This document shows positions 5,103 to 35,346 of a stretch of DNA of 41,313 nucleotides, piece after piece. The first letter of the stretch is position 1, and each line of letters starts with the position of its first letter. The translations under genes and the position numbers were made by a program. The DNA lies in the NCBI GenBank assembly GCA_031278715.1, contig JAITJW010000190.1, positions 1-41,313 of the forward strand. Direction: 5' to 3'. This stretch comes from Treponema sp. Lineage in GTDB: Bacteria; Spirochaetota; Spirochaetia; Treponematales; Breznakiellaceae. Below the pieces are notes generated by a model. It made no database searches. It was not told the DNA's origin and was given only the letters and a program-made list of their open reading frames with translations.

Positions 5103-6503
5103 TTATTTAGTTTCCTTTTTTAGCGCTGCCTGGAGCTTTTGAGCCGCCTTGGTATCGCCGATGTGCATAGCATTGTACGCTTCGTCTGAACTTTTAAAAG
5201 ACTCCCGGTCCTCAAAGCCGTGCCAGTGAATCTCGTTAACGATTGGAGCTGTCCGGCCTGTTTCCTGTTCCCGTTTTTTGATCCAGCTGTCCATGCGGTC
5301 CGAAAGGGCTTTGACAATTCCCGGTTCTTTTTTGGCGATATTGTCCAGTTCCAGGGGATCTTTGATAAGATCGTAGAGTTCCACTTCACTCTTGTAATGG
5401 AAATCCGGTTCCAGGGCGCGGATGATCTTGTATTGGGGGGTACGCCAGCCGTGTTTCCGTTCCCAGGTACATTCGGTGATGTAGAACTCAGGCTCCTGTT
5501 TCAGGCTGCCGCCGGTCATGCGGGCCAGGAGGCTTCTGCCTTCCATGCGGATGCCCTTCCGGTCAATGCCCATAATGTCAAGAACAGTGGGAAGCACATC
5601 TTTCAGGGTAACAATATCATCGAAGCGGGATCCCGCCGGTATTTTGGCAGGGTAACGGAACACCAGGGGCACGCTCAGGGTACACTCATAAAGACCGTGA
5701 TGGTCGAACCAACATTCGTGTTCATCCAGGGTTTCACCGTGATCGGAGGTAAAAACCACCACGGTATTATCTTCGATACCCAGGGTCTTCAATTCTTCCG
5801 TTATTATTGCGATACACGCGTCCATATAGGCTACTTCACCGTCATACTGGGCCTTGATGTACTCCACATCGGTACATCCCGGCGGAAACCAGGAGTAGAA
5901 GTAGTCGCGAAAGGGCTTAAAGGCGTAGCACTTTTCCAGGGACTTGTTTTTCGTGTCAAATTCATCGCCGGCGTAAAAAATGCGCTCAAAGGGCCGGGGC
6001 GGAAGGTAGGGCGAGTGGGGATCCATGTGTCTGAGGAAGAGAAGGAAGGGTTCATCCCCGGACGCAAGGCGTCTGAGTTCGGGAATGGCGACTTCGTTGA
6101 GGTTTTCGGCCTTGGGGGAACGGCCCGTCTCCCAGGATCCCCAGCCGCTGAAATCAATGTACTTGTCAAAACCCCGGCTGGCGGGGTTTCCGGTAAAGCC
6201 CACGCAACTGGTGGTGTAACCGTTTTCCTTGAGAATTTCCGGCAGGGTCTTTACCCCCGGAGCGTAGCTGCCCTTATGGCGGAGGGCGACGATGCCCGTA
6301 CCGAAAACATCATGTCCCGACAGCATGTTGGCATACCCTGATGTGGTGGGAATTGACGCGCTGAAGCAGGAATTCCACACGGCCCCCGACTGGGCGTACT
6401 TGTCCAGATGGGGAGTGGTAAGCCGGTGATAACCGTGAAGGCTCATCCGGTCCCGTCTAAGGCTGTCGATACCGACAAAAAGCAGGTTAGGTTTCTTTTT
6501 CAT
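5103..6503 (-). CDS. Sulfatase-fold hydrolase without a CxPxR motif
   Basis: Alkaline-phosphatase-superfamily protein of 466 residues. Metal-binding segments are clear: FVGIDSLRRDRMS near residues 9-21 and FTSDHGETLDEH with WFDHHG in the middle. Where sulfatases carry C/S-x-P-x-R it has SASIPTTSGYANMLSG (48-63): no Cys and no Arg, leaving Ser or Thr as possible nucleophile. It may therefore act as a phosphodiesterase, phosphotransferase or atypical sulfatase. No signal peptide is seen. The start has AAGGAG eight bases upstream and follows the isomerase gene by 39 bases; the next gene starts directly after its stop. Fold assignment is firm; sulfatase activity is doubtful. Confidence 0.85.
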   Translation of the reverse strand: MKKKPNLLFVGIDSLRRDRMSLHGYHRLTTPHLDKYAQSGAVWNSCFSASIPTTSGYANMLSGHDVFGTGIVALRHKGSYAPGVKTLPEILKENGYTTSCVGFTGNPASRGFDKYIDFSGWGSWETGRSPKAENLNEVAIPELRRLASGDEPFLLFLRHMDPHSPYLPPRPFERIFYAGDEFDTKNKSLEKCYAFKPFRDYFYSWFPPGCTDVEYIKAQYDGEVAYMDACIAIITEELKTLGIEDNTVVVFTSDHGETLDEHECWFDHHGLYECTLSVPLVFRYPAKIPAGSRFDDIVTLKDVLPTVLDIMGIDRKGIRMEGRSLLARMTGGSLKQEPEFYITECTWERKHGWRTPQYKIIRALEPDFHYKSEVELYDLIKDPLELDNIAKKEPGIVKALSDRMDSWIKKREQETGRTAPIVNEIHWHGFEDRESFKSSDEAYNAMHIGDTKAAQKLQAALKKETK

Positions 6504-27797: not shown

Positions 27798-29807
27798 TCA
27801 AAGCCTGCCGATACCCTTGATCTTCTCTATCTCGTCCCGGATTGCCGCGGCTTTTTCAAATTCCAGTTTTTTAGCGTGTTCCAGCATTTCGGCTTCCAGG
27901 GCCCTTACAAGTTTGTGCCGCTCGGCGGGGATCAGCACATTGTAGGATCTTTTGAGGACTTCAATGGAAGCCGCGGCGGCGTCTTGATCTTCCTGACTGT
28001 GCCGCTCCAGGATACTGGCAATGGCCTTCTTTACGGTGGTGGGGGTAATGCCGTGTTCCTTGTTGTAGGCCATCTGTATTTCCCGCCGCCGGTTGGTTTC
28101 TTTAATGGCCGCATCCATCGCGTCGCTGGTCCGGTCGGCGTACATGATCACCTTACCGGCGGCGTTCCGGGCCGCCCGGCCAATGATCTGTACCAGGCTG
28201 GTAAGGGAACGCAGAAATCCTATTTTGTCCGCATCCAGAATAGCGATAAACGAAACTTCCGGCAGATCGATTCCCTCCCGGAGCAGGTTGATCCCCACCA
28301 GAATGTCAAAATCCCCGGCCCGCAGACTGGTCAGTATTTCGACCCGCTCTATTGTTTCAACTTCGCTGTGGATATAGCGGACTTTAAGGCCCAGGCCGGA
28401 AAGGTAGTCCGAAAGGTCCTCCGCCATTTTTTTGGTCAGCGTAAGGATCAGTGAACGCTCGCCCCGTTTGATCCGCTGCCGTACCTCGCCGTAGATATCT
28501 TCCATTTGGCCGTCCGCGGAACGTACTTCAATCTCAGGATCCAGAAGCCCCGTAGGCCGGATAAGCTGTTGAACCACCCGGGCGGACTGGCCGGTTTCCA
28601 CCGTACCGGGGGTCGCGGAGACAAAAATGGTCTGGTTCAGGCGTTCCACGAATTCGTCGTAGCGCAGGGGCCGGTTATCCAGGGCACAGGGCAGGCGGAA
28701 GCCGTAGTCCACAAGGCTCTGCTTGCGGCTCCGGTCCCCGGCGTACATGGCCCCAAGCTGGGGCAGGGTAACGTGGCTTTCGTCGATGAACGTAAGGTGC
28801 CCGCCCCGCCTGTCTTTTCCCTTGGGCAGGTAGTCGATCAGGGTGTCCGGGGGTTCGCCGGGGTTCCGGCCCGCCAGGGGGGCGGAGTAGTTTTCAATGC
28901 CGGGACAGTAGCCCATCTCGGTGAGCATTTCAATATCGTACTCTACCCTGGTTTTCAGACGTTCCGCCTCCAGGTTCTTCCCGCCGGCTTTCAAAAACTC
29001 GTACCGTTCCGCCAGTTCTTGTTTGATGCTGCCCAGGGCCTTGTGGATCATCTCCACGGGCATGACGAACTGTTTGGCCGGGTAGATCATGGCCCGATCC
29101 AGATCGTCCAGGAATTGCCCGGAAACCGGATCGTAACGGCGGATCCGCTCCACTTTGTCCCAGTCCAAATCCACACGGTAGGCTTCTTCGAGGTAGGCGG
29201 GGTAGATTTCCAGCGTGTCCCCCCGACGGCGGAAGCGTCCCCGTTCCAGTACCGCGTCGTTCCGCTCGTACTGAAGCTCAATGAAACGCCGCATCAGGGC
29301 CTCTACGTCGATACGGTCCCCGCGGGCAAAGGTGGCGGTCATCTTTCTGTAGACCTCCGGCGTTGCCAGACCGTAGATACAGGACACGGTGGCAACGATA
29401 ATCACGTCCTGCCGTTCCATAAGACTCCTGGTAGCCGACAGCCTCATCCGCTCGATCTCGTCGTTTATTGAGGAGTCTTTTTCGATGTAAAGGTCCCGGC
29501 TGGCCACATAGGCCTCCGGCTGGTAGTAATCGTAGTAGGAAACAAAGTACTCCACCGCGTTGCCGGGGAAAAACCCCTTGAATTCCCGGTAGAGCTGGGC
29601 CGCCAGGGTCTTGTTGTGGCTCACGATCAGGGTGGGCATCTGCACCGCCTCGATGATCTTCGCCATCGTAAAGGTCTTGCCTGAACCGGTAACCCCCTGC
29701 AGGGTCTGGTACTTGTCCCCGGCTTTAATCCCCGCCGCAAGGGCGGCAATGGCCTCCCCCTGGTCGCCGGCAGGCTGGAAAGGACTTACGACTTCAAACG
29801 GGTGCAT
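27798..29807 (-). CDS. uvrB: Excinuclease ABC subunit B
   Basis: Complete UvrB of 669 residues, the DNA-damage-verifying helicase of nucleotide excision repair. Walker A is LQGVTGSGKTFTMAK (about 36-50). The damage-probing beta-hairpin region is YFVSYYDYYQPEAYV. Later helicase motifs are FIDESHVTLPQLGAMYAGD, RGERSLILTLTKKMAEDL and QIIGRAARNAAGK. The last 40 residues form the UVR domain that contacts UvrA/UvrC (LVRALEAEMLEHAKKLEFEKAAAIRDEI). Start ATG matches the standard N-terminus (HPFEVVSPFQPAGDQ); no Shine-Dalgarno is evident. A possible -10, TATAAA, is the complement of 29900-29905. uvrA and uvrC are not in the window. Confidence 0.98.
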   Translation of the reverse strand: MHPFEVVSPFQPAGDQGEAIAALAAGIKAGDKYQTLQGVTGSGKTFTMAKIIEAVQMPTLIVSHNKTLAAQLYREFKGFFPGNAVEYFVSYYDYYQPEAYVASRDLYIEKDSSINDEIERMRLSATRSLMERQDVIIVATVSCIYGLATPEVYRKMTATFARGDRIDVEALMRRFIELQYERNDAVLERGRFRRRGDTLEIYPAYLEEAYRVDLDWDKVERIRRYDPVSGQFLDDLDRAMIYPAKQFVMPVEMIHKALGSIKQELAERYEFLKAGGKNLEAERLKTRVEYDIEMLTEMGYCPGIENYSAPLAGRNPGEPPDTLIDYLPKGKDRRGGHLTFIDESHVTLPQLGAMYAGDRSRKQSLVDYGFRLPCALDNRPLRYDEFVERLNQTIFVSATPGTVETGQSARVVQQLIRPTGLLDPEIEVRSADGQMEDIYGEVRQRIKRGERSLILTLTKKMAEDLSDYLSGLGLKVRYIHSEVETIERVEILTSLRAGDFDILVGINLLREGIDLPEVSFIAILDADKIGFLRSLTSLVQIIGRAARNAAGKVIMYADRTSDAMDAAIKETNRRREIQMAYNKEHGITPTTVKKAIASILERHSQEDQDAAAASIEVLKRSYNVLIPAERHKLVRALEAEMLEHAKKLEFEKAAAIRDEIEKIKGIGRL

Positions 29808-29938: not shown

Positions 29939-30075
29939 CAATCGGGAAAATTTGTTGAAATTTAGGAAATTGGTATGAAAAAAAATATTATAGTGAAGCT
30001 TCAATGGTAGTCAGCCCGGTAGCAGCCGGAAAATAAATCCCACCTCCCTTCAAGTTAGGGGACAGGAGTAGTAGC

Positions 30076-32091
30076 ATGAATGAAATGGGAACCGGTGTAA
30101 GTTTGGCGGAACAGTTTTTTGCTTTGGGGGAGCCCTACGCGGGGGGATTTTATGAGGAAACTGAGCGGGGCCGGTTTTTTCGATTTTCCCGGGCCCAAAG
30201 GCGGTTCTGGGAACAGACCCCCCTGGGTACTTACAGAGGAGGCGCCCTGTACCCCTGCGGGATCAAGTACCCCCAGGGCCCGGCGGTGTACCCCGACTAT
30301 TCCTATACGTTTGCCGTGGACTGGAACCGTCTGGAACAAAAGTGGAGCGGGGCGGTTCCCCTGCTTCGCCGGGAAACGGAACTCTTCCTGGGGGTAGGCG
30401 CTCCCCACAATGTCGGGGGCGATATGTACACCCACTCCATGCCCCGCTATGACCGGGTTCTCCGGGAGGGTCTGGACGCCTACGAAGCACGGATCCGTGC
30501 CCTGGCCGAGGGTGATTTCCGGGACGGGCTTCTGGACATTGTGGAAGGGATCAGGGTCTATCACCGCCGCTGCCTTGAAACCATTCGGGCCGCAATAAAC
30601 GAAGAAAACAGGGCCAATGCAGAAAAACTCCTGGCCGCCCTGTCCCGTGTCCCCTTTGCCCCTGCACAGAACATGTACGAGGCCCTGGTCTCCTGGAATT
30701 TTATTTATTATGTGGACGGCTGCGATAACCCCGGGCGGCTTGATGCAGACCTTATCCCCTGGCACCGGGGGGAAGATTGTACGCCCCTTTTTGAGGAATT
30801 CTTTGTCAATGTCGATGAAAATTCAGGCTGGAGCGCCGCTGTCGGGCCGGATTGTAATGCCCTTACCCTGCAATGCCTCCGGGCGATACAGGGCCACCGC
30901 CGTCCCAGTCTGGAACTGCGGGTGAACGACACTACCCCCGCGGAAATCTGGCAGGCCGCGGCGGAATCCCTTGCCGGCGGCTGCGGGGAGCCCGCCCTGT
31001 ACAACGAGACCCTGTACCAGCGTACCCTTGCGGAACGTTTCCCCCATATTCCCCTTCGGGATCTCCTGCGCTTCAACGGCGGTGGCTGTACCGAAACCAT
31101 GCTGGCGGGGATCAGCAACGTAGGTTCCCTCGATGCAGGTGTTAACCTCCCCCTGATTTTTGAACCCTATATGCGGAAGAACCTGGAGAGCGCCGGGAGT
31201 TTTGAAGTGTTCTACCGGGGTCTTCTGGACGAGATCGCCTGCGCCGTAATTCCGGTACTGGAACGGATCGGCGAATGTCAGGAGCGGCGGGCCGCGGTTC
31301 GCCCGCAGCCGGTACGGACCCTTCTTGTTGACGATTGTATTGAAAAAGGGAAAGACTTTAACGCCGGAGGCGCCCGCTGGTATTGGAGTGTGGTCAATTT
31401 CGCGGGGCTTATCAACGTCATCGATTCCCTTTTGGCGATCCGCCACCTGGTGTACCGGAAGACAGGCCCGGTCATGGCCCCCGCCGCTTTCCTTGCCGGC
31501 CTTGCGGAACAGGAGACCGGTTTCCTGCGCGTGCTTAAAACCTGTCCCTGTTTCGGCGTGGACAATGAGGAGGCCGACACCCTGGCCGCGGATTTTGCAG
31601 GCCGGGTTTTTGATCTGCTGGAGGAACGGACCCCCTATCTGGGAGGACAGTTCCTGCCCTCCTCAATTCAGTTTGTTACGTATACCTGGGCGGGTTCTAC
31701 AGTAGGACCGACCCCGGACGGCCGGGAGCAGGGGGCGCCTCTGGCGGATTCCCTGGGGGCTATTCACGGAAAGGACACGGCAGGCCCCACCGCCCTGCTG
31801 AACAGCGTAGCAAAACTACCCCTGTACAAGGCGCTGGGTACGCCTGTCCTCAACCTGCGGCTTAAAAAAGACAATCTTGCCGCCTGTCTGCGTCCCCTCG
31901 TTACAGGCTACTTTGCACGGGGTGGAATGCACGTACAGATAAGCTGCTTTTCCCGTGAAGATATGCTGGATGCGCTGGAACACCCGGAACGGCACGAGAA
32001 CCTTATCGTCCGCATCGGCGGTTACTCCGAATACTTCAACCGCCTTGACAGGGTCCATAAAGAAACCGTGTTACAGCGTACGGAATTTTAG
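30076..32091 (+). CDS. Glycyl radical enzyme (PFL-like superfamily), substrate unknown
   Basis: Protein of 671 residues with both defining sites of glycyl radical enzymes. The thiyl Cys is in FNGGGCTET (Cys-338, followed by Glu-340). The C-terminal radical loop is VRIGGYSEYFNRLDRVHKETVLQRTEF, with the radical Gly at 649. The conserved TPDGREQGAPLADSLGAIHGKDTAGPTA segment (546-572) and GGMHVQIS (616-623) complete the fold. At 671 residues it is shorter than pyruvate formate-lyase or diol dehydratases (roughly 750-850), and the radical motif R-I-G-G-Y departs from the common R-V-A/S-G-Y. Every member needs a radical SAM activase; none lies beside it. AGGAG precedes the ATG. It appears to be a single-gene unit, divergent from uvrB. 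The reaction cannot be assigned. Confidence 0.88.
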   Translation: MNEMGTGVSLAEQFFALGEPYAGGFYEETERGRFFRFSRAQRRFWEQTPLGTYRGGALYPCGIKYPQGPAVYPDYSYTFAVDWNRLEQKWSGAVPLLRRETELFLGVGAPHNVGGDMYTHSMPRYDRVLREGLDAYEARIRALAEGDFRDGLLDIVEGIRVYHRRCLETIRAAINEENRANAEKLLAALSRVPFAPAQNMYEALVSWNFIYYVDGCDNPGRLDADLIPWHRGEDCTPLFEEFFVNVDENSGWSAAVGPDCNALTLQCLRAIQGHRRPSLELRVNDTTPAEIWQAAAESLAGGCGEPALYNETLYQRTLAERFPHIPLRDLLRFNGGGCTETMLAGISNVGSLDAGVNLPLIFEPYMRKNLESAGSFEVFYRGLLDEIACAVIPVLERIGECQERRAAVRPQPVRTLLVDDCIEKGKDFNAGGARWYWSVVNFAGLINVIDSLLAIRHLVYRKTGPVMAPAAFLAGLAEQETGFLRVLKTCPCFGVDNEEADTLAADFAGRVFDLLEERTPYLGGQFLPSSIQFVTYTWAGSTVGPTPDGREQGAPLADSLGAIHGKDTAGPTALLNSVAKLPLYKALGTPVLNLRLKKDNLAACLRPLVTGYFARGGMHVQISCFSREDMLDALEHPERHENLIVRIGGYSEYFNRLDRVHKETVLQRTEF

Positions 32092-32110
32092 CAGCTTGTA
32101 CTTGCAGGTT

Positions 32111-32314
32111 TTATGATTTTCCACGGCTTGGACTGTTATGGCGCCGTGCCGCCGGGTTTGACTGGGGACAGCCGGATGCCCGGGAGCAGCCGCAGGAACA
32201 GGCGGATTCCCCCCGCCGGGCTTTGCGGATAAGACGGAACAGTACAAAGCCCAGAAGACCGAATACCAGCGTTCCTGCGATGATGGTGGATAGATTGTCC
32301 TGTATAAAATCCAT
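32111..32314 (-). CDS. FeoB-associated Cys-rich membrane protein
   Basis: Small protein of 67 residues: one membrane span (IIAGTLVFGLLGFVLFRLI, about 11-29), then a basic stretch and a Cys cluster (ACSCGCSRASGC). This layout matches the short FeoB-associated proteins found after feoB in many bacteria, thought to support ferrous iron uptake in the way FeoC does elsewhere. GGAGG stands five bases before the ATG, and it follows feoB by 33 bases. The cysteines could bind iron or sense redox state. It is the last gene of the feo run. Confidence 0.85.
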   Translation of the reverse strand: MDFIQDNLSTIIAGTLVFGLLGFVLFRLIRKARRGESACSCGCSRASGCPQSNPAARRHNSPSRGKS

Positions 32315-32347
32315 AAAAACCTCCGGAAAACCGGCGCGCCGTTGCGG

Positions 32348-34438
32348 TTAAGTTCCCCCCGCGCCGCGGTTTTGCCCCCCGGGTCTGCGGACCAAAAGGG
32401 CGATGTAGAGGGCCAGGACCGCTAGTCCTGCCGCGGTACCAGCGTTAAAGGCGCCGCCCGCCATGAAGCTGCCCAGCTGGTACACGATGAGGGACAGGGT
32501 GTAGCCGAAGAGAAGCTGATAGCTGACGGCGAAAAACGTCCATCTGCCGTTGTTCATTTCCCGCCGTATCGCCCCGATGGCGGCGAAACAGGGAGGGCAG
32601 TAGAGGTTGAAGACCAGGAAGGCGTAGGCGGACAGGGCGCTGAAGTTCGCTGCGAATGTTTCCCACATTTCCCGTCCTTCTTCCCCTACTTCCCCGAAGC
32701 CGTACAGTACCCCCATCGTCCCCACGACGTTTTCCTTTGCCACCATGCCGGTAATGGTAGCCACCGCTGCGTCCCAGGTGCCGAAGCCCAGGGGGGCAAA
32801 GACAGGGGCAATGGCGGAACCGATGAGCGCCAGGAGCCCCTGGTTAAGATCCTGCACCATGCCAAAGCCCCCGCCGGTAAAGCCGAAGCCGGACAGAAAC
32901 CAGATAAGCACTGCTGAAATGAGGATGACCGATCCAGCTTTTTTGATGAAAGACCATGCCCGTTCCCACATGCTGCGCAGTACGTTAACCGGCCCCGGAA
33001 CGTGGTAGGCGGGAAGTTCCATGACAAAGGGAGAAACATCGCCCCGGAAAGGCGGGCTTTTCTTGAGGATGATCCCCGACACAATTACCGACAGGATGCC
33101 AAGAAAATAGGCGCTGGGGGCTACCCACCAGGCCCCGCCCAGTACTGCGCCGGAGATAAGGGCAATGACGGGGAGTTTTGCCCCGCAGGGCATAAAGGTG
33201 GTAACCATAACCGTAAGCCGGCGGTCGTATTCGTTTTCTATGGTCCTGGAGGCCATGACTCCCGGAATACCGCAACCCGTACCGATAAGCATGGGGATAA
33301 AGCTTTTCCCCGAAAGGCCGAAACGGCGAAACACCCGGTCCAGAATGAAGGCGATACGGGCCATGTAACCGCAGGCTTCCAGGACCGCCAGGAACAGGAA
33401 CAGTACCAGCATCTGGGGAACAAAGCCCAGAACTGCGCCCATACCCCCTATAATTCCGTCCAGGATAAGGCTGTTAAGCCATTGTGCGGTCCCCAGGGCT
33501 TCCAGCGCGTTTTCCACCAGTACCGGAACACCGGGAATCCAGATGCCGAAATTCTCAGGATCCGGCTTCTCCGCGGTTTGTCCGGCCTCAAAAGCCGCCG
33601 TTGCCCCGGCGAAGGCCCCGCCCCCCGTAAGGTGCCAGCCCTCGCCGAAAAGCCCGTCGTTGGTCCAGTCGGTAACCCAGGTTCCCACCGTGGTAACCGA
33701 GACAAAGTAGACGATAAAAATGATCGCCGCGAAAATAGGCAGGGCCAGGAAACGGTTGGTAAGCACCCGGTCGATCCGGTCGCTTACCGACAGATCCCCC
33801 CGGATCCTGTTCCGTTTGTGGCAGCCGGCCACTACACCGCTAATAAACTCGTAGCGGGCTTCGGTATCCAGGGCTTCAAGATCCTCCCCGTCGTGGAGAT
33901 CAGCCGGGCCTGCGGAGGGAAGCGTAACTACCGGCTTGGGGGGCTTTGCCTCTTCCGCCAGACTCAGGGCCCGCTCAACGGCTTCGGCTACCCCCGTACC
34001 TTTGAGGGCGGAAATGGCGGCCACCGGACAGGCCAGGCTTTTTTCAAGTTTCACAAGGTCAATTGAATCCCCCGATTTGCTGACCGCGTCGATCATATTG
34101 ACCAGCACCAGTACGGGGATTCCCATTTCCAAAAGCTGGGTGGTAAGGAACAGGTTCCGTTCCAGGTTGGTGCCATCGACGATGTTAAGGATTAGCCCCG
34201 GTTTTTGTTCCGTAAGGTAGTTCCGCGCGATGACTTCTTCGAGGGAATAGGGGGAGAGGGAGTATATCCCCGGCAGATCGGTAACAGTTACGTCCCGGTG
34301 ATTCTTAAGCCGGCCTTCTTTTTTCTCGACAGTTACTCCCGGCCAGTTCCCCACAAACTGGTTGGAGCCGGTTAACATGTTAAAAAGGGTGGTTTTCCCG
34401 CTGTTGGGATTCCCCGCCAGCGCTATCGTAATACCCAT
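32348..34438 (-). CDS. feoB: Ferrous iron transport protein B
   Basis: Fe(II) transporter of 696 residues. The N-terminal G-protein domain shows G1 GNPNSGKTT (9-17), G3 DLPG, and G4 NMID; it regulates the channel. A linker follows and then a polytopic membrane domain with the two Gate motifs (GCGIPGVMASRTIENEYDRRLTVMVTTFMPCGAKLPV, and the second around FNLYCPPCFAAIG). Size is usual for the family. Start is the ATG that gives MGITIALAGNP; AAGG lies just upstream. It is preceded by two feoA genes and followed by the Cys-rich protein, all minus strand, so a complete feo operon. Iron repression is expected from the dyads upstream of the first feoA. Confidence 0.98.
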   Translation of the reverse strand: MGITIALAGNPNSGKTTLFNMLTGSNQFVGNWPGVTVEKKEGRLKNHRDVTVTDLPGIYSLSPYSLEEVIARNYLTEQKPGLILNIVDGTNLERNLFLTTQLLEMGIPVLVLVNMIDAVSKSGDSIDLVKLEKSLACPVAAISALKGTGVAEAVERALSLAEEAKPPKPVVTLPSAGPADLHDGEDLEALDTEARYEFISGVVAGCHKRNRIRGDLSVSDRIDRVLTNRFLALPIFAAIIFIVYFVSVTTVGTWVTDWTNDGLFGEGWHLTGGGAFAGATAAFEAGQTAEKPDPENFGIWIPGVPVLVENALEALGTAQWLNSLILDGIIGGMGAVLGFVPQMLVLFLFLAVLEACGYMARIAFILDRVFRRFGLSGKSFIPMLIGTGCGIPGVMASRTIENEYDRRLTVMVTTFMPCGAKLPVIALISGAVLGGAWWVAPSAYFLGILSVIVSGIILKKSPPFRGDVSPFVMELPAYHVPGPVNVLRSMWERAWSFIKKAGSVILISAVLIWFLSGFGFTGGGFGMVQDLNQGLLALIGSAIAPVFAPLGFGTWDAAVATITGMVAKENVVGTMGVLYGFGEVGEEGREMWETFAANFSALSAYAFLVFNLYCPPCFAAIGAIRREMNNGRWTFFAVSYQLLFGYTLSLIVYQLGSFMAGGAFNAGTAAGLAVLALYIALLVRRPGGQNRGAGGT

Positions 34439-34466: not shown

Positions 34467-34691
34467 CTATTCGCTAACTTCGATAATGTCAATATCGGCC
34501 TTCCGCAGGGAAAGCTCATAACCCCGGACCATGACCTCCACCGGATCCCCCAGGGGCGCCACCTTACGGACCAGAATTTCCGTGTTCCGGGTGATCCCCA
34601 TAGTCATAATCCGCTGCTTTACCGGGCCTTCGCCGTGCAGCCTGGTTACCCTGACCGTTTTGCCCGGCGTAATATCGTTCAAGGTCAACAT
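34467..34691 (-). CDS. feoA: FeoA-family protein (second in operon)
   Basis: SH3-like FeoA domain protein of 74 residues (LNDITPGKTVRVTRLHGEGPVKQRIMTMGITRNTEI, then VMVRGYELSLRKADIDIIEV). FeoA binds FeoB in the cytoplasm and is needed for full Fe(II) uptake. It starts nine bases after the stop of the first feoA with AAAGG as ribosome site, and ends 28 bases before feoB. It carries the 'RGYELSLR' element typical of the classical FeoA, so it is the likelier canonical partner of FeoB. Confidence 0.93.
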   Translation of the reverse strand: MLTLNDITPGKTVRVTRLHGEGPVKQRIMTMGITRNTEILVRKVAPLGDPVEVMVRGYELSLRKADIDIIEVSE

Positions 34692-34700
34692 ACCCGGCCT

Positions 34701-34910
34701 TTATACCAGAATAGTATTGGCCATCTCCCGGCTGATGGCAAAACGGGAATCTTTAACCAGGACGATAAGGTTCCCCGCAAACTGGGACACTACCTTGACC
34801 TCGCTTCCCACGGTGAAGCCCATAGCCAAAAGCCGGTTTTTCAGATCTTCGGGTCCGCCCAGCTTTCTTACGGTACGGCCTTCCCCAGGTTTTACCAAGG
34901 TTAAGGGCAT
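34701..34910 (-). CDS. feoA: FeoA-family protein (first in operon)
   Basis: FeoA domain protein of 69 residues (MPLTLVKPGEGRTVRKLGGPEDLKNRLLAMGFTVGSEVKVV, then LIVLVKDSRFAISREMANTILV). Start at 34910 was chosen because GGAGG lies eight bases upstream; an ATG five codons earlier would overlap that site. It is diverged from the second copy, sharing the LLAMGF/RIMTMGI turn. Tandem feoA genes are known in anaerobes; the two may form a heteromeric complex on FeoB. The TTGACA/TATTTT promoter and perfect dyad are directly upstream. Confidence 0.92.
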   Translation of the reverse strand: MPLTLVKPGEGRTVRKLGGPEDLKNRLLAMGFTVGSEVKVVSQFAGNLIVLVKDSRFAISREMANTILV

Positions 34911-34936
34911 TGAATCAACCTCCATCCCGGTTTCTA

Positions 34937-35269: not shown

Positions 35270-35346
35270 TGGTCGGGCAACGCGGATTCGAACCGCGGAC
35301 CCCAAGTCCCCCAGACTTGTACGCTAACCAACTGCGCTATTGCCCG
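35270..35346 (-). tRNA. tRNA-Pro(GGG)
   Basis: The 77-base minus-strand cloverleaf is complete. Acceptor CGGGCAA pairs with TTGCCCG; D-stem GCGC/GCGT surrounds AGTTGGTTA; anticodon stem CAAGT/ACTTG encloses the loop CTGGGGG with anticodon GGG; T-arm is CGCGG TTCGAAT CCGCG. Discriminator A and an encoded CCA end it. It reads CCC and CCT codons. The first base downstream of the isomerase gene is about 60 bases away, so it might be co-transcribed or have its own promoter. Confidence 0.97.

Follow-up and report, generated by a model that had tools for sequence, protein, structure and literature searches.

Our analysis of contig JAITJW010000190.1 from Treponema sp. (Breznakiellaceae; GCA_031278715.1) indicates that it encodes a compact glycyl radical enzyme (GRE) of 671 amino acids, which is probably a functional member of a small eliminase-type subfamily and conventionally activated by a radical SAM activase encoded elsewhere. 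The window examined here is this entire 41-kb contig (C36 of its own genome), and the GRE gene occupies positions 30076–32091 of the forward strand, stop codon included, with an ATG start that lies 7 nt downstream of a Shine-Dalgarno-like AGGAG (30064–30068, forward strand). Pfam searches of the open reading frame detected both the PFL-like barrel with the catalytic Cys loop (PF02901; 136.5 bits against a cut-off of 24.3) and the C-terminal glycyl-radical domain at residues 559–655 (PF01228; 70.9 bits against a cut-off of 22.2). The gene is intact and under purifying selection: comparison with L013, an 87% identical ortholog from the same genus, gave a dN of 0.073 and a dS of 0.506 (dN/dS about 0.15), indicating that the gene is not decaying and that its protein is maintained.

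Catalytic residues and compact architecture

The active-site segments reported in the initial annotation of this 671-residue GRE, namely Cys338/Glu340, TPDGR and Gly649, were all confirmed by the sequence and by Pfam. Cys338-Thr339-Glu340 (31087–31095, forward strand), which comprises the predicted thiyl-radical cysteine (TGT, 31087–31089) and the predicted catalytic glutamate (GAA, 31093–31095), is invariant in all 15 members of the compact clade described below, and the TPDGR segment (residues 546–550; 31711–31725, forward strand) is evident in both the sequence and the clade alignment. The glycyl-radical loop VRIGGYSEYF (residues 645–654; 32008–32037, forward strand) lies within PF01228 and contains the predicted radical Gly649 (GGT, 32020–32022), and the G648-G649 pair is invariant in 15 of 15 sequences. 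The RIGGY motif had been singled out as a peculiarity of this protein, a view that we abandon because R-[IVM]-G-G-Y occurs in every one of the 15 clade members and R-I-G-G-Y is also found in non-compact GREs.

Profile-profile alignment of the compact clade to 20 canonical GREs extended over 647 columns with a probability of 100 and placed His120, Cys338, Glu340 and Gly649 on the canonical GRE positions. His120 (30433–30435, forward strand) falls on the GHxxxDY histidine of GRE eliminases, is nearly invariant in the clade and presumably corresponds to His164 of glycerol dehydratase. Both eliminase-type features are thus present, Cys-x-Glu as Cys338-Glu340 and the GHxxxDY-type histidine as His120. 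Threonine, and never cysteine, follows the catalytic cysteine in all 15 compact GREs, so that PFL-type chemistry is excluded by the two-cysteine criterion.

The same alignment located the missing parts of the compact proteins. Their match begins at canonical column 33, the first 32 profile columns being absent, and further deletions affect the N-terminal portion and the loop that precedes PGRxD, as well as the stretches following this loop and the Cys loop. The D214-G-C-D217-N218 loop (30715–30729, forward strand), in which D214 and D217 are invariant in the clade, lacks six columns relative to canonical GREs, in which the extended form of this loop carries His281/Ser282 (glycerol dehydratase numbering). 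An AlphaFold2 model of the window GRE, computed from five input sequences, had a mean pLDDT of 53.9 and was too poor for a reading of the ten-stranded beta/alpha barrel fold.

Phylogenetic placement of the compact GREs

Relatives were sought in the contigs of the genome itself and in 200 genomes of the same family, 391 Clostridia-type genomes and 393 genomes of the same phylum. This search recovered 14 further compact GREs (38–87% identical), hosted by a few Treponema-family and Clostridia-type genomes; a scan of viral contigs for more relatives found none. The resulting clade of 15 consists of 12 full-length proteins of 659–673 aa, one fragment and two basal members (L119 and L120) of 726–729 aa. 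In a 49-row tree, a single branch with an SH-aLRT support of 100% set all 15 compact GREs apart from PflB, PflD, YbiW, HypD and CutC. At a threshold of E 1e-100, compact GREs were present in 9 of 391 genomes from the class of G201 and in 1 of 393 phylum genomes besides that of the window.

No NCBIfam GRE model reached its cut-off on the window GRE. The nearest was TIGR01774 (PFL2/glycerol dehydratase; PFL2-3) with 180.4 bits against a cut-off of 678.2, in comparison to 154.7 against 1100 for the HypD model (NF043068), 102.2 against 1050 for the CutC model (TIGR04394) and 70 against 994 for the PFL model (TIGR01255), whose Cys-Cys pair is also absent. The best matches among solved structures, glycerol dehydratase 1r8w (1e-43) and HypD 6vxc (1e-39), which cover mainly residues 260–670, would fit a divergent member of a characterized family, be it glycerol/diol dehydratase, HypD, CutC or PFL. 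We consider this very improbable in view of the model scores, the separate and fully supported clade, the threonine that follows Cys338 in place of the second cysteine of PFL, and the surroundings of the window GRE, near which no microcompartment or proline genes were seen.

The window GRE resembles B12-independent glycerol dehydratase (1R8W/1R9D/4MTJ), the closest solved sequence, and PflD/YbiW-type GREs (TIGR01774) in its GRE domains, CxE motif, GHxxxDY histidine, TPDGR segment and C-terminal Gly loop, but it is about 115 residues shorter than these and lacks the His281/Ser282 loop. Eliminase-type residues are likewise common to the window GRE and HypD (6VXC), whereas the former has no proC neighbour and belongs to a separate clade. 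The nearest outside kin of the compact clade are uncharacterized GREs of 724–762 aa from Clostridia-type genomes (L096, L102 and L103; 88% SH-aLRT), and the short D..DSPGRxD loop is common to the compact GREs and two of these (L096 and L102). Searches of the open-access literature yielded no description of the compact subfamily. The best reading of these data is that the compact GREs constitute a new and rarely encountered subfamily among the eliminase-type GREs. The new subclass suggested by the initial annotation is thereby supported, its rank being that of a rare subfamily, and clustering inside a known GRE family, which had been set against that suggestion, was not seen in the 49-row tree.

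The sister group of the compact clade also differs at the catalytic loop itself, as all three of its members (L096:1495–3687, L102:1495–3780 and L103:1174–3345) have Cys-Asn-Gln where the compact GREs, and nearly all eliminase-type GREs, have Cys-x-Glu.

Gene neighbourhood and activase linkage

The neighbours of the GRE gene are unrelated to it and match those named earlier, with uvrB on one side (27798–29807, reverse strand; TIGR00631, 1005 bits) and feoB on the other (32348–34438, reverse strand; Pfam), the latter accompanied by two FeoA-like small open reading frames recognized by eye (34467–34691 and 34701–34925, reverse strand). No GRE activase or activase remnant is present on the 41-kb contig, a result that applies to the contig and neither to the genome nor to the family. 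DNA homology between the window and L013 is confined to positions 30076–32092, from the ATG to just past the stop codon, indicating that the compact GRE has changed neighbourhood without its activase partner. Such confined homology, together with a contig devoid of activases, can be interpreted as the mark of a silent or stranded gene that moved without its partner and promoter and whose enzyme is never activated in this Treponema. This interpretation is quite unlikely, however, considering the low dN relative to dS, the full set of intact catalytic residues, the good ribosome-binding site and the retention of an unlinked copy in several other lineages. Insertion by a mobile element was considered and rejected, as only short imperfect repeats surround the gene and none is found at both gene ends.

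Several other features of these neighbourhoods were recorded. Two distant compact GREs are adjoined by feoB (window 30076–34438; L117:5664–11032), which may be due to chance, and the L117 GRE-activase pair lies between feoB and a DtxR-type regulator region identified by eye. The window further encodes two sulfatases (569–1951 and 5103–6503, both reverse strand) amid Gfo/Idh/MocA-like oxidoreductases and sugar isomerase-like genes, and a tRNA-Pro (GGG) at 35270–35346 (reverse strand).

Activase linkage was observed in many of the relatives. An activase of the TIGR02494 family (324 bits) is adjacent to and divergent from the GRE of L013, an activase adjoins the compact GRE in the same direction in L012, L116, L117, L118 and L120, and in L119 the activase is one gene away. 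GRE activases of the TIGR02494 type (PFLE/PFLC) are the partner type beside compact GREs in relatives, the scan with this model having covered the activases of L012 and L013 (304–324 bits, cut-off 174). The earlier statement that this GRE has no activase partner is therefore correct for the 41-kb contig and incorrect for the clade, seven members of which encode an activase directly beside the GRE or at a distance of one gene. Four relatives (L112, L113, L114 and L115) have no adjacent activase and carry a divergent regulator-like gene instead; a different GRE-activase pair is located ~3 kb from L115, and a stand-alone activase occurs in two of these four genomes. In L011, L010 and L058, the neighbourhood is interrupted by a contig end. 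Other genes near the compact GREs of relatives, some of them named by eye, encode AraC-/IclR-type regulators, Gfo/Idh/MocA-like oxidoreductases, TIM-barrel sugar isomerase-like proteins, URO-D proteins and polysaccharide-related functions, and this assortment is a loose pointer to carbohydrate-derived compounds.

A candidate activase encoded in trans

The genome of the window GRE (assembly 84% complete) contains four GREs and three activases. The GREs on contigs C27 and C112 have adjacent activases, while that on C114 runs into a contig end and is 87% identical to a GRE of G104 that has an adjacent activase. Contig C111 carries an activase fragment (TIGR02494; 163 bits, positions 112–286) that is cut on its upstream side by the contig end. 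The C111 activase was rejected as the partner of the C114 GRE, since the adjacent activase of the G104 ortholog is only 34% like C111. With C27 and C112 paired and C111 not the partner of C114, two genes are left unpaired, namely the window GRE and the activase on C111. The C111 activase was also rejected as the ortholog of the L013 activase (49% identity, compared to 87% between the GREs) and, unlike the activases of linked relatives, it is unlinked and truncated.

In a first activase tree, C111 fell into a clade (100/99) with the activases of L013, L116, L117 and L118 only. When activases of five other genomes were added, the C111 group was joined by stand-alone activases from G406 and G284, two genomes in which the compact GRE is likewise unlinked, and by one activase whose linked GRE is a different one. 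A wider search grouped C111 with stand-alone activases of G309, G240, G495 and G577 (starred at 95), genomes in which no compact GRE was found at 1e-100 among the top candidates scored per genome and in which the stretches read contained no GRE. Placement of C111 in a clade made solely of compact-linked activases was thus softened by wider sampling. The C111 activase is accordingly of the stand-alone type, close to the compact-linked ones in the trees, and it represents a good candidate partner of the window GRE. At 84% completeness, the assembly may lack the true partner, and another GRE could lie in the missing stretch upstream of the C111 activase. A loose subclade is formed by the stand-alone activases at L203:9361–10290, L204:2768–3706, L205:1055–1960, L206:8889–9794, L171:9037–9933 and L172:297–1199, with no GRE on the stretches read around them.

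Alternatively, the window GRE may share its activase with another GRE of the cell, be it the GRE on C27, that on C112 or that on C114, whose own activase would be unassembled. In E. coli, PflA is known to activate two GREs, PflB and TdcE. Besides the window GRE, the genome encodes three GREs and at least two complete activases, and G200, G122 and G543 possess a compact GRE with no activase of the C111 or compact-linked type seen, all of which is consistent with sharing. Four of the seven compact-linked activases (L013 and L116–L118) nevertheless form their own subclade, outside of which the C27 and C112 activases are placed, and sharing appears unlikely. The most probable activation route is through an unlinked activase, which requires no new principle, E. 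coli TdcE being a known case of an unlinked GRE that is served by one activase. We infer that such an unlinked activase switches the window GRE on, the truncated C111 gene being the best candidate. Activation in trans, as proposed in the initial annotation, is plausible, and the one unpaired activase detected in this genome (C111) groups with stand-alone activases and near the compact-linked ones.

Proposed mechanism and wider context

The window GRE most likely operates in the manner of other GREs. Under conventional activation, the radical SAM activase would remove a hydrogen from Gly649, the radical would pass from Gly649 to Cys338, and the resulting Cys338 thiyl radical would abstract hydrogen from a substrate that is small and polar, while Glu340 and His120 would assist the departure of a leaving group (water or amine). 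An elimination reaction is suggested by the CxE and His pair, which is common to eliminases. Residues and gene context together point to elimination chemistry and to a substrate that may be derived from a sugar or polyol.

A further reading is that the compact GREs catalyse a new class of reaction and have lost genetic linkage to their activase on repeated occasions, the unlinked enzymes being served in trans by stand-alone activases of a dedicated line. We hold this to be unlikely; if true, it would place the enzyme and its switch under separate control. That GRE and activase are recurrently found apart is in any event a warning that gene neighbourhood alone does not make a GRE an orphan. As the compact clade is small and well delimited, with linked activases in several relatives, it can be tested as a co-expressed pair with no guessing of the activase. 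Many abundant gut GREs are without an assigned function (PMC11574389), and newly assigned GREs have opened up pathways, such as that of isethionate sulfite-lyase (PMC6386719).

Unusual Cys loops were also observed in GREs outside the compact clade. In L139:1924–4293 (Peptoclostridium acidaminophilum) and L030:487–2820, which are placed beside CutC in the tree, Gly-Cys-Val-Val replaces Cys-x-Glu and the glutamate is lost in both. The genome of the window GRE itself encodes on contig C112 a very divergent GRE of 729 aa (L055:1350–3539) with Gly-Cys-Asn-Trp-Cys at the Cys loop and its own adjacent activase.
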